Assembly: GCF_005938215.1 (NCBI RefSeq)
Contig: NZ_VCPD01000002.1
Span: 310,001-374,000, forward strand
DNA length: 64,000 nt
Reading direction: 5' to 3'
DNA from: Ruegeria sediminis
GTDB taxonomy: Bacteria > Pseudomonadota > Alphaproteobacteria > Rhodobacterales > Rhodobacteraceae
The position numbers were made by a program, and so were the translations under genes. Shown here one piece after another: positions 22,117 through 57,335 of the stretch; position 1 is the first letter of the stretch, and each line of letters starts with the position of its first letter. The notes beneath the pieces are model-generated. The model saw only the letters and a list, made by a program, of their open reading frames with translations, searched no databases and was not told the DNA's origin.

Positions 22117-22145
22117 TTGACACAAAACGTGAACATGCGTAGAAC
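22117..22145 (+). promoter_or_regulatory. lexA promoter with SOS box
   Basis: -35 TTGACA (22117-22122), 17-base spacer, -10-like TAGAAC (22140-22145). The alphaproteobacterial LexA site GAAC-N7-GAAC lies at 22131-22145 and covers the -10, so LexA should repress its own gene. Confidence 0.88.
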
Positions 22146-22178
22146 AAAAGCAAACGCATGAGCGACGAGGTACGAGCA

Positions 22179-22877
22179 ATGTTGACCAAGAAACAACTGG
22201 ATCTGTTGGAGTTCATCCACAAACGGGTGCAGGCTGACGGTGTTCCGCCCAGTTTCGACGAGATGAAGGCGGCGCTGGACCTGCGGTCGAAGTCCGGCAT
22301 CCACCGGCTTATCACGGCGCTGGAGGAGCGCGGCTTCATCCGCCGGCTGGCTCACCGTGCGCGCGCCATCGAAATCGTGAAGCTGCCGGAAAGCCTGGGC
22401 GGCGAACCGACAGCGGGTTTCAAACCGCGCGTGATCGAAGGCGACAGGCCCTCTGGCCCGCGGCCCGCCAACGTGGAGCCGGTCGCGGTGCATGCGATCG
22501 AATTGCCGGTCATGGGCCGGATCGCCGCCGGTGTGCCTATCGAGGCGATCAGCCACGTCTCGCATCAGGTGGCCGTGCCAGGCTCCATGATCTCAGGCCG
22601 GGGCGAGCATTACGCGCTCGAGGTGCGGGGCGACTCGATGATCGACGCCGGCATCAACGATGGCGACGTGGTGGTGATCCGGGAAACATCTGTCGCGGAC
22701 AACGGCGACATCGTCGTGGCGTTGGTCGAGGATCAGGAGGCCACGCTCAAACGGTTCTTCCGGCGTGGCAATGCCATCGCTCTCGAGGCGGCGAACCCCG
22801 CCTATGAAACCCGCGTTCTGCCCGAGGACAAGGTAAAGGTGCAGGGCCGACTGGTCGGGCTGATCCGGACTTACTGA
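22179..22877 (+). CDS. lexA: SOS-response repressor LexA
   Basis: 232 residues. N-terminal winged helix-turn-helix (1-65) and a C-terminal self-cleavage domain. The Ala117-Gly118 cleavage site, Ser153 (GDSM) and Lys191 (ATLKRFF) are all present, so it should respond to RecA normally. The start is MLTKKQLD, with GAGG nine bases upstream; an ATG 21 bases earlier is in frame but less likely. Its end overlaps the opposed comEC by 7 bases. Confidence 0.96.
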
Positions 22878-27870: not shown

Positions 27871-28959
27871 TCAGAACAGGGACAGTTGCGCCCCTGCCCG
27901 CTCGGGCCGGACGAACAGGTCGCTGCGAAGCGGCGCCGTTTCGATTTCCAGGCCGATCCGCTTGACGGCTGCCCTGAACCGCTGGGCGATCATTTCTGCG
28001 TAGCGACCTTCGCCGAGCATCCGGTGCCCCCAGCGCGGGTCGTAGTCGCGACCGCCGTGCATCTCGCGCAGCCTGGTCATGACCTTGTCGGCGCGGCCTG
28101 GTTCGTGCGCGGCCAGCCACTCCTGCCAGAGTTGCGAAACCTCGCGGGGCAACCGCAACATGATCCAACTGGCTGCATCCGCGCCGGAGTCCCTGGCCGC
28201 TTGCAACAGCGCCTCAAGCTCGTGATCGGTCAAACCGGGGATCAGCGGCGATGTCATGACCCGCACAGGCACGCCCGCCCGCGCCAGGCGTTCGATCGTC
28301 CGCAGTCGGCGCAGCGGTGCAGGTGCGCGCGGCTCCATCCGACGTGACAGTCCGGCATCGAGAGTCGTCAGCGATATGCCGACTCTCACCAGCCCATCCC
28401 GCGCCATGTGGGCAAGGATATCCAGATCGCGTTCTATCAAGGCCCCCTTCGTGACGATGGCGACCGGGTGTCGGGTGTCCTTTAGCACCTCGAGACAAGC
28501 CCGTGTAATCTGCCTGTCCTTTTCGATCGGCTGATACGGGTCGGTGTTCGTGCCAATGGCGATCGGCGCAACCTTGTATGACCGCGCCGCCAATTCGCGA
28601 CGCAACACTTCGGCCGCGTTAGGTCGCGCAATCAGCCGGGTTTCAAAATCCAGACCGGGGGACAGGCCCAGATAGGCGTGGGTCGGACGGGCGAAGCAAT
28701 AGACGCAACCGTGTTCGCAACCGCGGTAGGGATTGATCGAGCGGTCGAAAGGAAGATCCGGAGAGCGGTTGTAGGTGATCAGGCTGCGTGCCACTTCGTC
28801 CCGCACAACCGTCTGAAGAACGGGAGTTTCTTCTTCGTTGTCCCATCCATCGTCGAAGGCTGCGGTTTCGTGGCGCTCGAACCGCCCGGCATGGTTCGAC
28901 ACCGCGCCGCGACCCGGTGCGTTGAATTGAGATTCCGCCGTGTTCTTCAATTGTTCCAT
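27871..28959 (-). CDS. PA0069-type radical SAM protein under apparent SOS control
   Basis: 362 residues. The radical SAM cluster motif CEHGCVYC is at residues 81-88, followed by FARPTHAYLGLSPGLDFET, which identifies the PA0069/spore-photoproduct-lyase-like group. Members are thought to act on nucleic acids but the reaction is unknown. The promoter carries a perfect LexA box in its spacer, and the ATG lies only six bases after the -10, so the transcript may be leaderless. This puts the gene among damage-inducible genes. Confidence 0.88.
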   Translation of the reverse strand: MEQLKNTAESQFNAPGRGAVSNHAGRFERHETAAFDDGWDNEEETPVLQTVVRDEVARSLITYNRSPDLPFDRSINPYRGCEHGCVYCFARPTHAYLGLSPGLDFETRLIARPNAAEVLRRELAARSYKVAPIAIGTNTDPYQPIEKDRQITRACLEVLKDTRHPVAIVTKGALIERDLDILAHMARDGLVRVGISLTTLDAGLSRRMEPRAPAPLRRLRTIERLARAGVPVRVMTSPLIPGLTDHELEALLQAARDSGADAASWIMLRLPREVSQLWQEWLAAHEPGRADKVMTRLREMHGGRDYDPRWGHRMLGEGRYAEMIAQRFRAAVKRIGLEIETAPLRSDLFVRPERAGAQLSLF

Positions 28960-28965
28960 TCCCCA

Positions 28966-28994
28966 AATCTAGAACAATAAGGGAACATCGGCAA
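28966..28994 (-). promoter_or_regulatory. Promoter with SOS box for the radical SAM gene
   Basis: Minus strand: -35 TTGCCG (28989-28994), 17-base spacer, -10 TAGATT (28966-28971). GTTC-N7-GTTC (plus strand GAAC-N7-GAAC, 28972-28986) lies inside the spacer, the same site type as at lexA. Confidence 0.78.
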
Positions 28995-29239: not shown

Positions 29240-29938
29240 ATGTCGGATGAAGAAGACATCGTCCTGTCGGAACTGAACGACGACGAACTCGTCGAGCAGA
29301 TGTTTGACGACCTTTACGACGGTCTCAAGGAAGAGATCGAAGAAGGCGTGAACATCCTTCTGGAGCGCGGTTGGGCGCCCTATGACATCCTCACCAAGGC
29401 CCTGGTGGGCGGCATGACCATCGTGGGCGCCGACTTCCGCGACGGGATCCTGTTCGTGCCCGAAGTTCTTCTGGCGGCCAACGCCATGAAGGGCGGCATG
29501 GCCATCCTCAAGCCGCTGCTGGCCGAAACCGGCGCACCGCGCGTCGGCAAGATGGTGATCGGCACCGTCAAGGGCGACATCCACGACATCGGCAAGAACC
29601 TCGTGTCGATGATGATGGAAGGCGCCGGCTTTGAAGTGGTCGATCTGGGCATCAACAACCCGGTTGAAAACTACCTGGAAGCGCTGGAAACCGAAAAGCC
29701 CGACATTCTGGGCATGTCAGCCCTGCTGACGACCACCATGCCTTACATGAAGGTCGTGATCGACACGTTGGTCGAACAAGGCGTCCGGGACGAGTACATC
29801 GTTCTGGTGGGCGGCGCGCCGCTGAACGAAGAATTCGGCAAGGCCATCGGCGCCGACGCCTATTGCCGTGACGCGGCAGTGGCCGTCGAAACCGCAAAGC
29901 ACTTCGTGTCGCGCAAGCACAACCAGCTGACCGCCTGA
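29240..29938 (+). CDS. Corrinoid protein of an MttB-type methyltransferase system
   Basis: 232 residues. An N-terminal helical cap (about 1-95) precedes a B12-binding domain with GDIHDIGKNL, in which His115 is the expected lower ligand to cobalt, then GMSALLTTTMPYM and VGGAPLNEEF. Such proteins carry the methyl group taken from methylamines or betaines by an MttB-family partner; the only partner here is at 1.0 kb. The start is MSDEEDIV (AGGGAA upstream); the longer frame from 29129 is not favoured. Ends at a strong terminator. Confidence 0.92.
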   Translation: MSDEEDIVLSELNDDELVEQMFDDLYDGLKEEIEEGVNILLERGWAPYDILTKALVGGMTIVGADFRDGILFVPEVLLAANAMKGGMAILKPLLAETGAPRVGKMVIGTVKGDIHDIGKNLVSMMMEGAGFEVVDLGINNPVENYLEALETEKPDILGMSALLTTTMPYMKVVIDTLVEQGVRDEYIVLVGGAPLNEEFGKAIGADAYCRDAAVAVETAKHFVSRKHNQLTA

Positions 29939-31155: not shown

Positions 31156-31197
31156 GTGACGGGTTTTCCTTGGGCGGCGCAAAACCGGAGTCGCGAC

Positions 31198-31872
31198 ATG
31201 ACCAGGCAAGACCTGCCAGACGATGAACAACTGACAAAGGATGGCCTGGCCGTTTCCGAACCATCCGGACGCATCCTGCTGATCGCCTGTGGGGCGCTTG
31301 CGCGCGAAATCCTGGATGTGAAGGCCCGCAACGGCTGGAATCACATGGATTTGACATGCCTGCCCGCCATCCTGCACGTGCATCCGGAGAAGATCACCGA
31401 AGCCGTCGAAGAGGCCGTCAAGAAACACCGCAACGCCTATGACCGCATCTTCGTCGTCTATGCCGATTGCGGCACCGGTGGCCTGTTGCAAAAGGCGTGC
31501 GAGAGGCTTGGCGTCGAGATGGTCGAAGGCCCCCACTGCTACTCGTTTTTCGAAGGAAATCAAGCCTTTGAGGCGCGGGATGAAAGTGAGGCCACGGCAT
31601 TCTATCTGACCGATTTCCTGGCCCGGCAGTTCGACGCTTTCGTGTGGAAACCGCTGGGTCTGGACCGTCATCCGCAATTACGCGACATGTACTTCGGAAA
31701 CTACACAAAACTTGTCTATCAGGCCCAGACCGACGACCCGGCACTGACAAAAAAAGCGCGGGAATGCGCCGAGCGCATGGGTTTGGAATTCGAACGCCGT
31801 TTCACCGGGTATGGGGATCTTGAGACCACCTTGGCGGATTGGGCCCAGAGGTCCGCGTCTTCCGAACAGTAA
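31198..31872 (+). CDS. DUF1638 domain protein
   Basis: 224 residues. Carries the DUF1638 features CGALAREI, YADCGTGG and EGPHCYSFFEG, with several conserved Cys/His that could bind a metal. Known genome neighbourhoods place this family beside MttB-type methyltransferases and corrinoid proteins, and here it lies 1.3 kb from the corrinoid gene. Its function is unknown. The start at 31198 has GGAG upstream; the Met 42 bases earlier is not favoured. Confidence 0.85.
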   Translation: MTRQDLPDDEQLTKDGLAVSEPSGRILLIACGALAREILDVKARNGWNHMDLTCLPAILHVHPEKITEAVEEAVKKHRNAYDRIFVVYADCGTGGLLQKACERLGVEMVEGPHCYSFFEGNQAFEARDESEATAFYLTDFLARQFDAFVWKPLGLDRHPQLRDMYFGNYTKLVYQAQTDDPALTKKARECAERMGLEFERRFTGYGDLETTLADWAQRSASSEQ

Positions 31873-32990: not shown

Positions 32991-34148
32991 TCAGAGCGAC
33001 ACCACCTTGACTTCCTGCCCCATGGCGGTCAGGGCGATCTTGCCGTCGCAAAGGCGCAGCGCGTCCTCTCCGAACACTTCGAAGCGCCAGCCCGACATCG
33101 CGGGAACCTCGCGCTCGCCTGCCGCTATCTGATCGAGCTCCGCGCTGGTGGCGATCAGCTTGGCGGCAACGCCCGAGCTTTCGGTCTTTGACTTCAGAAG
33201 CACACGCAGCAGATCGGCCAGGGCCGGATTGACCTTCAGCTTGTCGCGGCTTGTATCCGCGCGGGGCATCTTTTCGGGCGGGCAGTCGATGCCGCGCTTG
33301 ACTGCGGCCAGGATACCGTCCGCGATCGCCCCCTTTCGCGCATCGCGCAGCAGCAGCCGTGAACCACCCAGATCCGCAGGCGTGCGGGGTTTGGTCGAGG
33401 CCAGTTCGATCAGCGCGTCGTCCTTGAACACGCGGCTTCTGGGAACGTTGTTGTCTTGCGCATAGGTTTCGCGGAACTGGGCAAGTTCCTTTACCACGGC
33501 CAGAAACTTAGCCGAATTGGTGCGCGTCTTGACCCGTCGCCACGCTTCTTCGGGGCGGATGTCGTAGGTGGCGGGGTCGGTCAGCGTGCGTAGTTCCTCG
33601 GCCACCCAATGCGTCCGGTTGGTCTTTTTCAACTCGGCCGCAAGGTGTTCGTAGATCTTCCGCAGATGGGTCACATCCGCCAGCGCATAGGTCTTTTGCG
33701 CATCGGTCAGAGGGCGACGCGACCAGTCGGTAAAGCGCGAGGTCTTGTCGAGCCCTTGTTTGCAGATCTTGCGCACGAGAGTCTCGTAGCCCACCTGCTC
33801 ACCAAAGCCGCAGACCATCGCCGCGACCTGTGTGTCGAAAAGCGGCTTGGGGAAGACGCCGGCCTCGACCCAGAAAATTTCCAGATCCTGCCGTGCGGCG
33901 TGAAAGACCTTGACTACGTCTTCGTTGCGGAACAGATCCAGCAGCGGCTCCACCGAAATTCCGTCGGCCAGAGGATCCACCAGCACCGCGCTTGCGTCGT
34001 CGTCCGATGGATAGGCCAGCTGAACCAGACACAGCTTGGAGTAATACGTCCGCTCGCGCAGAAACTCGGTATCGACGGTGACATAGGGATGGGCGGCGGC
34101 GGCCTTGCAGAATTCGGCCAGTTCTTGCGTTGTGGTCAGTGTTCTCAT
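32991..34148 (-). CDS. rnd: Ribonuclease D
   Basis: 385 residues. 3'-5' exoribonuclease for tRNA and stable RNA trimming. DEDD-type motifs: VDTEF (Asp and Glu, near residue 26), HAARQDLEIF and YALADVTHL with the Tyr/Asp pair, followed by an HRDC region. Stands as a single gene upstream of a 118-base spacer to purN. Confidence 0.95.
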   Translation of the reverse strand: MRTLTTTQELAEFCKAAAAHPYVTVDTEFLRERTYYSKLCLVQLAYPSDDDASAVLVDPLADGISVEPLLDLFRNEDVVKVFHAARQDLEIFWVEAGVFPKPLFDTQVAAMVCGFGEQVGYETLVRKICKQGLDKTSRFTDWSRRPLTDAQKTYALADVTHLRKIYEHLAAELKKTNRTHWVAEELRTLTDPATYDIRPEEAWRRVKTRTNSAKFLAVVKELAQFRETYAQDNNVPRSRVFKDDALIELASTKPRTPADLGGSRLLLRDARKGAIADGILAAVKRGIDCPPEKMPRADTSRDKLKVNPALADLLRVLLKSKTESSGVAAKLIATSAELDQIAAGEREVPAMSGWRFEVFGEDALRLCDGKIALTAMGQEVKVVSL

Positions 34149-34266
34149 GCGCGGTATTAAGTCTTGCTCTTATGTTCTTTTACTGCCCGTAGAAACTTGT
34201 ATCGCTGCAGGCGCCACGCGCGAACATAGGCTGAACCGCGGGCGCGTGTAAATCTCCGTCAAGCTG

Positions 34267-34863
34267 TCAAGGCAAGAGAACCGGATCACTGTTGCCCGAA
34301 GCGAACCGGCGCAGAACGGCTGGGTACAGCTTGTGCTCCCACACCAGAACCCGCGCGGCCAGAATTTCGGGCGTATCACCGGGTTCGACGGGCACTCGCG
34401 CCTGACCAAGGATTGGGCCATCGTCCAGCGCCGCGGTCACCTGATGCACGGTGCAGCCATGTTCGGTATCGCCCGCTTCGAGCGCGCGGGCGTGAGTGTG
34501 CAGTCCCTTGTACTTGGGCAGCAGCGATGGGTGGATGTTCAGCATCCGCCCCTGAAACCGCGACACGAAACCGGCCGTCAGAACCCGCATGAAACCGGCA
34601 AGACAGACGATGTCCGGCTCGGCCGCCAGCAACGGTTTGAGCAATTCCGCCTCGAACGCAGCGCGATCGCCGGCAAATGGTCGATGATCGACCACCGCTG
34701 TCGGAATGCCCCGATCCGCCGCCTTCCTAAGCCCGCCTGCCTGCGCCTCGTTGGAGAGGACGAGGCAGGGCCGCGCCGGATGGTCGCCGGACATGCTGTC
34801 GACCAGCGACACCATGTTCGACCCTCCACCCGAGATCAGAATGGCGACGCGTTTGTGGCTCAC
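34267..34863 (-). CDS. purN: Phosphoribosylglycinamide formyltransferase
   Basis: 198 residues. Transfers formyl from formyl-THF to GAR in purine synthesis. Shows ISGGGSNM near the N-terminus and the catalytic [13 protein letters not shown]. The start is GTG at 34863, overlapping the purM stop as GTGA, which sets translation coupling and explains why a longer in-frame stretch upstream should be ignored. Confidence 0.95.
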
Positions 34864-57223: not shown

Positions 57224-57335
57224 GGTCTCACCTCCGGTCAGGAATTAAGCCTTTGTTGACCTTTTGTTCTCATTTCTCGCCGCATCTGTAAAGAACTTTT
57301 TAAGAACATTTGTGAACTTTTTGCGTTCCGACACC

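Follow-up and report, generated by a model that had tools for sequence, protein, structure and literature searches.

SOS control of splB-like genes had been proposed before. Such control was predicted in 2012 for splB (COG1533) in alpha- and beta-proteobacteria, the trait not being observed in the gammaproteobacterial set of that study, according to the accessible part of the paper (PMC3323433). The corresponding parts of later reports name splB as SOS-regulated in Bacteroidetes (PMC8565304) and place a radical SAM gene under SOS control in Gram-positive bacteria, as part of the SOS core, and in Balneolaeota (PMC7739468), as well as in Streptomyces (PMC9380542). In the same parts, the published splB genes are called photolyase or SplB and may or may not be members of the PA0069 family; the Gram-positive SOS-core gene (PMC7739468) may or may not be Rv2578c. 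GTTCN7GTTC is quoted as the alphaproteobacterial LexA operator motif in the portion available of PMC3091678, and the main text of a paper on LexA sites in Dinoroseobacter shibae, as far as accessible, contains no match for radical SAM or photolyase (PMC6473078). At the level of the enzyme, the spore photoproduct lyase (SPL) of B. subtilis is described, in the section available, as using C141 as the likely hydrogen donor and Y99 as a radical relay, and its C141A and Y99F variants as slower and still active in vitro (PMC3742179). At the level of the transcript, 171 leaderless transcription starts, all with AUG, were mapped in Sinorhizobium meliloti, according to the part of the report at hand (PMC3616915). 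Among the matches listed in our own searches, no title naming PA0069 concerned an SOS or repair function, and none combined PA0069 with "radical SAM"; nor did any title among the matches listed for leaderless SOS genes describe such a layout, which is no proof of absence. PA0069 of Pseudomonas aeruginosa itself reportedly lies within the LexA regulon, as Cirz et al. are said to have found in 2006.

We compared these systems with a locus in a 64,000-nucleotide stretch of Ruegeria sediminis DNA, hereafter the window (Table 1). Like the published SOS-regulated splB genes, those of alphaproteobacteria included, it encodes an SplB-like radical SAM protein and has LexA-type sites in its upstream region; it differs from them, as far as the accessible descriptions go, in its placement in the PA0069 family, in lacking the SPL catalytic residues, and in a conserved, probably leaderless layout. 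A first-pass annotation had described a perfect GAAC-N7-GAAC box inside a 17-base promoter spacer, followed by a -10 element, six bases and ATG. Both the box and this layout were confirmed on re-reading, and the layout is supported by the comparisons below: the coding (-) strand reads TTGCCG, AT, GTTCCCTTATTGTTC, TAGATT, six bases, ATG, so that the box takes up 15 of the 17 spacer bases. That annotation made no mention of a second, inverted box, GAACAATTGAAGAAC, or of a lexA gene with its own box about 5 kb from the PA0069-family gene. The locus thus combines GTTCN7GTTC at a promoter with a LexA encoded in the same genome behind a box of its own, as in an alphaproteobacterial LexA regulon. The best named relative among the matches listed is Ruegeria marisrubri, at 82% identity. 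As far as searched, and among the matches listed, the conserved, probably leaderless layout, the inverted second operator, the relocation of the operator within Ruegeria, and the repeat found in two further families (f67 and f46) are new, and a predicted SOS gene becomes testable.

Table 1. Features of the radical SAM locus and of lexA in the window (positions within the window)
Feature	Position	Strand	Basis or remark
LexA-type box upstream of lexA	22131..22145	+	ends 33 bases ahead of lexA
lexA, presumed regulator	22179..22871	+	TIGR00498 183.1 bits vs cut-off 110.95; LexA_DNA_bind, Peptidase_S24
PA0069-family radical SAM gene	27871..28959	-	362 aa ORF, ATG start, stop included
Second box GAACAATTGAAGAAC, opposite orientation	28942..28956	-	overlaps codons 2-6
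Start codon ATG = predicted transcription start (28959, leaderless)	28957..28959	-	spacing conserved across loci
-10 element TAGATT	28966..28971	-	sequence pattern
LexA-type SOS box GTTCCCTTATTGTTC, within promoter spacer	28972..28986	-	perfect match and orthologue conservation
-35 element TTGCCG	28989..28994	-	sequence pattern
B12-binding corrinoid gene, divergent	29240-29938	+	
DUF1638 gene	31156-31872	+	

Conservation of the box upstream of orthologues, which the first-pass annotation had put forward as a check, was assessed in two locus collections. The first comprised 110 orthologue loci, one source of which was the best 80 of 589 loci; going by their titles, nearly all are alphaproteobacterial, the exceptions being L060 (Enemella), L098 (Lysobacteraceae) and two given simply as Proteobacteria (L066 and L095). 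The N7 box lies within -300 to +60 of residue 16 in 95 of the 110, at a density of 2.49 per kb against 0.031 per kb outside this stretch. Each of the other direct-repeat spacings between N2 and N13 is found in 1-4 loci, save N11 with 13, and inverted repeats at N11 are present in 8. Fifteen loci have no exact box, one of which (L025) has just 69 bases of upstream sequence. Within a sample of 120 Rhodobacteraceae genomes, 84 carry the gene and 83 were examined (G108, with the gene in pieces, was left out); 77 of the 83 upstreams, two of them short (L025 and L294), contain the exact box, that is, 27/30 in a first set and 50/53 in a second, and two of the three boxless loci of the second set have it with one mismatch. 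Named and unnamed loci share organisms, which makes the spacing counts given below for the 59 Rhodobacterales-like loci and for the second set partly dependent. Since the box is conserved across orthologue loci, with N7 far above the other spacings, we take it to be real, and the comparison of sequences confirms GAACN7GAAC upstream of the PA0069 gene as a genuine LexA-type site.

The inverted box recurs at nearly the same place as GAACAATTGAAGAAC in L031-L035 and in L282, the sole other member of the window's genus within the 120-genome sample. The window and L031 carry both the spacer box and the inverted box. In L282 and in four Ruegeria loci, L032-L035, the inverted downstream box stands by itself, in the latter four 2-4 bases ahead of the likely start codon; the spacer layout is therefore not universal, even in close relatives. 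It looks as though the operator has been moving within one genus.

Across the Pseudomonadota, 171 of 398 genomes have a PA0069-family protein above the NF033668 cut-off, and the operator form upstream of the gene differs among clades. GTTCN7GTTC was present in 11 of 14 distant alphaproteobacteria, one picked per family, versus none of the upstreams from 46 other Pseudomonadota (46 of the 65 non-alpha genomes with a match were used, 18 others falling outside the matches listed and G507 having too little upstream). Exact CTGTN8ACAG was found in 30 of these 46 loci, with 0-2 for the other spacings from 2 to 15; allowing one mismatch gave 32/46, versus 2-12 at other spacings. Two of the 46 upstreams contain TTAGN6TACTA, which we take to be the Xanthomonas LexA motif. 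Six of the 14 loci with neither motif fall in families f46 and f67, which appear to be Lysobacterales-like gammaproteobacteria and one of which L098 (Lysobacteraceae) resembles. CTGTN8ACAG is absent from the PA0069 upstreams of both families. They share instead an inverted repeat, TC[GT]C-N7-G[AC]GA, in 26/29 (f67) and 24/27 (f46) loci, with other spacings giving 0-4; the stricter GTC[GT]C-N7-G[AC]GAC is present in 14/29 and 19/27, respectively. L346, L365, L385 and L388, with the anchor missing or cut, were left out of these repeat and spacing counts. The same repeat precedes recA in f46 (27/30; other spacings 0-1; strict form 11/30) and is found upstream of just 6/30 lexA-model matches in f67, where 9 of 41 genomes have no lexA-model match. 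We scanned 12 genomes, hand-picked among the PA0069 carriers, for the repeat plus a -10 pattern drawn from their own PA0069 upstreams, and obtained 27 places, the pattern read backwards giving 2. PA0069 itself accounts for eight of the 27; the other 19 include, as judged by eye, recA (2) and lexA-, uvrA-, DinB-, radA- and dprA-like genes, and several precede genes lacking an SOS link. The repeat is a candidate clade-specific SOS operator. The loci of the two families concerned are L335-L394 and L422-L451.

The first-pass annotation had also assigned the protein to the PA0069 group and called it a relative of SPL, and both statements hold, the second in the form of a common fold in a predicted model. 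The protein scores 511.7 bits against NF033668 (PA0069-family radical SAM; cut-off 360) and matches Radical_SAM PF04055; NF033668 is of the kind hypoth_equivalog, with no known reaction. Its sequence relative, the Rv2578c-family radical SAM model NF038135, gives 241.1 bits, far under that family's cut-off of 430. The CX3CX2C motif of the radical SAM superfamily is present, with C81, C85 and C88 invariant in 31/31 sequences. An AlphaFold2 model built from these 31 sequences (pLDDT 78, pTM 0.80) placed five SPL entries first in Foldseek, and VIA-align gave six SPL entries Z scores of 16.6-16.9, with lipoyl synthase as the next family (13.8) and viperin at 11.2. The best PDB match is SPL, with Z 16.9 and an rmsd of 3.3 over 256 aligned residues. 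When PDB sequences were searched with phmmer and with profiles, SPL was not among the matches up to E = 1, so that it is the fold comparison by itself that carries the kinship. Judged on this model, the PA0069-family protein is likely to operate as radical enzymes of the SPL fold do.

In the reading that we consider well supported as a whole, the PA0069-family gene would be LexA-repressed and leaderless and would encode an SPL-fold DNA-lesion enzyme. LexA, expressed from the gene 5 kb away, would bind one or two GAACN7GAAC operators lying across the spacer and the beginning of the coding sequence, and thereby shut the promoter. RecA-triggered cleavage of LexA would then allow RNA polymerase to start at or beside the A of the ATG, giving a leaderless mRNA. 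The enzyme would most likely reverse or process a DNA lesion by 5'-deoxyadenosyl-radical chemistry, with a hydrogen donor different from that of SPL. The family is widespread, no reaction has been assigned to it, it goes with SOS-type operators across clades, and it combines the fold of a repair enzyme with the lack of that enzyme's catalytic residues, which makes the reversal of an as yet undescribed DNA lesion plausible. A broader reading is offered tentatively, as something that could well turn out otherwise: PA0069 might be a core SOS gene of the Pseudomonadota with at least four operator forms, leaderless in Rhodobacterales, in many other alphaproteobacteria and in two further families, its translation starting independently of a Shine-Dalgarno (SD) sequence during damage, and its product an SPL-fold enzyme of lesion reversal with a non-cysteine hydrogen donor.

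The alternative that survives best is that the enzyme is SOS-controlled yet acts on nucleotides, RNA, protein or in anti-phage defence rather than on DNA lesions. We consider this unlikely, albeit less so than the other alternatives. It fits a family with no known reaction, and radical SAM families with such substrates, lipoyl synthase and viperin among them, also match the model. However, the nearest fold is that of a DNA-repair enzyme, 3 Z units ahead over the 256 residues, and SOS-type operators track the gene across clades. In 33 of 42 loci outside Rhodobacterales (among L066-L110), the 2 kb downstream of PA0069 contain an RNase HII gene, in 32 of them on the same strand, which is a possible repair link and speaks against a non-lesion substrate. 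In 38 Rhodobacterales-like named loci, the corrinoid gene and the DUF1638 gene were each found upstream of PA0069 in 36, and a convergent homocysteine S-methyltransferase gene downstream in 28; the window has citrate synthase in place of the latter. A general operon partner was considered and rejected, the neighbours differing between Rhodobacterales-like and other loci.

To return to the LexA-repressed, leaderless gene, the proposal of a leaderless transcript, made in the first-pass annotation, gained support from the spacing between promoter and start codon. Transcription begins as a rule seven bases after the -10 hexamer, which for the window gene puts the predicted +1 on the A of the ATG. 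We defined 68 loci as Rhodobacterales-like by identity and title (L001-L065, L067, L075 and L077), 59 of which have the forward box. Among these 59, the ATG lies exactly 12 bases past the box in 35, in frame in all 35 and as the first in-frame ATG in 33; TTG starts 8 bases ahead of the box in 37; and an in-frame ATG follows TANNNT at six bases in 21 and at seven in 5, with other distances in 0-2. The 50 boxed loci of the second set agree: 32 have their first in-frame ATG at 12, and 42 have it at 11-13. An SD-like 4-mer stands ahead of the ATG in just 1 of 50 Rhodobacterales-like loci versus 42 of 173 long control ORFs, a control that takes the first ATG of each long ORF and whose 24% is therefore rough. 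Similarly, mmcB has an exact box in 24/30 loci, with the first in-frame ATG 11-12 bases past it in 20 of the 24. We conclude from these spacings that the PA0069 mRNA of the window is probably leaderless, with its start at or beside the A of the ATG. The S. meliloti leaderless mRNAs have AUG at +1 and no SD sequence, the arrangement predicted here; there the starts were mapped, as the accessible part of that report states (PMC3616915), and here they are read from promoter geometry. The conserved start, which mmcB has in almost identical form, prompts one to ask whether certain SOS proteins gain a translational advantage under damage.

An ordinary mRNA leader, with transcription starting farther upstream or translation starting downstream of 28959, is improbable. 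The -10 hexamer is short of full consensus, and the promoters were called by pattern alone, of a kind that arises by chance, all of which would suit such a leader. Against it stand the fixed distance of 12 in both sets, the near absence of SD-like sequences, and the recurrence of the spacing where the operator is placed differently. Outside Rhodobacterales, the 32 boxed loci have a longer distance between box and ATG than the Rhodobacterales-like loci, and TANNNT is nevertheless six bases from an in-frame ATG in 12 and seven in 5. In f67 and f46, with another operator, the first in-frame ATG of PA0069 is 22 bases past the repeat in 31 of 50 loci, which by eye corresponds to six bases after the -10, as it also does in 6 of the 8 PA0069 places of the genome-wide pattern; recA with the same repeat has its first in-frame ATG at 52-54 in 10 of 27. 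The first in-frame ATG lies 47-70 bases past the box in 10 of the 32 boxed loci outside Rhodobacterales and at 41 in 2, and these 12 are, from their spacing, probably not leaderless. In the CTGTN8ACAG loci, the ATG is mostly 14-22 bases past the box, often with a stretch between that by eye is purine-rich, so that the leaderless trait is not universal. At lexA in the window, an in-frame ATG at 22158 lies 12 bases past the box and 21 bases ahead of the likely start at 22179, resembling the leaderless spacing.

That the protein is a true SPL repairing 5-thyminyl-5,6-dihydrothymine is very doubtful. It shares with SPL (PDB 4FHC, 4FHF and 4K9R) the fold over model residues 22-341, the CX3CX2C motif, and the tyrosine ahead of the third cluster cysteine (Tyr87, corresponding to SPL Y97), which is invariant in 31/31 sequences. 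Its identity to SPL is 12-13%. In contrast to SPL, conservation of cysteines across the 31 sequences is confined to the three of the cluster: no fourth conserved cysteine column matches C141, and the sole other cysteine of the window protein, C155, is Cys in 7/31. Residue 89, in the place of SPL Y99 by its position beside the third cluster cysteine, is Phe in 30/31 and Tyr in one. The PDB sequence searches, with no SPL up to E = 1, point the same way. We therefore do not class the PA0069-family protein as an SPL, given the lack of a conserved fourth cysteine and the Phe in the Y99 place. The place that C141 takes in SPL may be lined here by the invariant residues T139, D140 and Q143.

The reading of the box as a chance match can be dismissed, for although the window holds 6 GAACN7GAAC boxes versus 2.35 expected, the N7 spacing control and the conservation in further locus sets speak decisively for a LexA-type site. 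Significance from the window alone was dropped as evidence, box count and promoter-plus-ATG string both being near chance: 4 of 100 shuffles reach 6 boxes, and the string TTGNNN-N16..18-TANNNT-N5..7-ATG occurs once, shuffled sequences averaging 0.75. Genome-wide, GTTCN7GTTC is found at 183 places versus 94 for the pattern read backwards, and GTTCN6TGTTC 50 times versus 17 for its backwards control. From the latter sites we looked at 20 of the 50, chosen mostly for AT-rich middles. Some of these 20 precede uvrA-, imuA-, imuB-, uvrD- and mmcB-like genes (named by eye; mmcB confirmed by PF06319), and others lie within ORFs or ahead of genes lacking an obvious SOS link. Elsewhere in the window, GAACN7GAAC matches are present at 34222-34236 and 34303-34317, upstream of an RNase D-like gene starting at 34148 (-) with the domains DNA_pol_A_exo1 and HRDC, and an AT-rich half-site cluster, GAACTTTTTAAGAAC then GAACTTTTTGCGTTC, occupies 57293-57328. 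In the same genome, a further box, GTTCTCCTTTTGTTC (L155), is situated 52 bases ahead of an ORF that by eye resembles a macro-domain protein.
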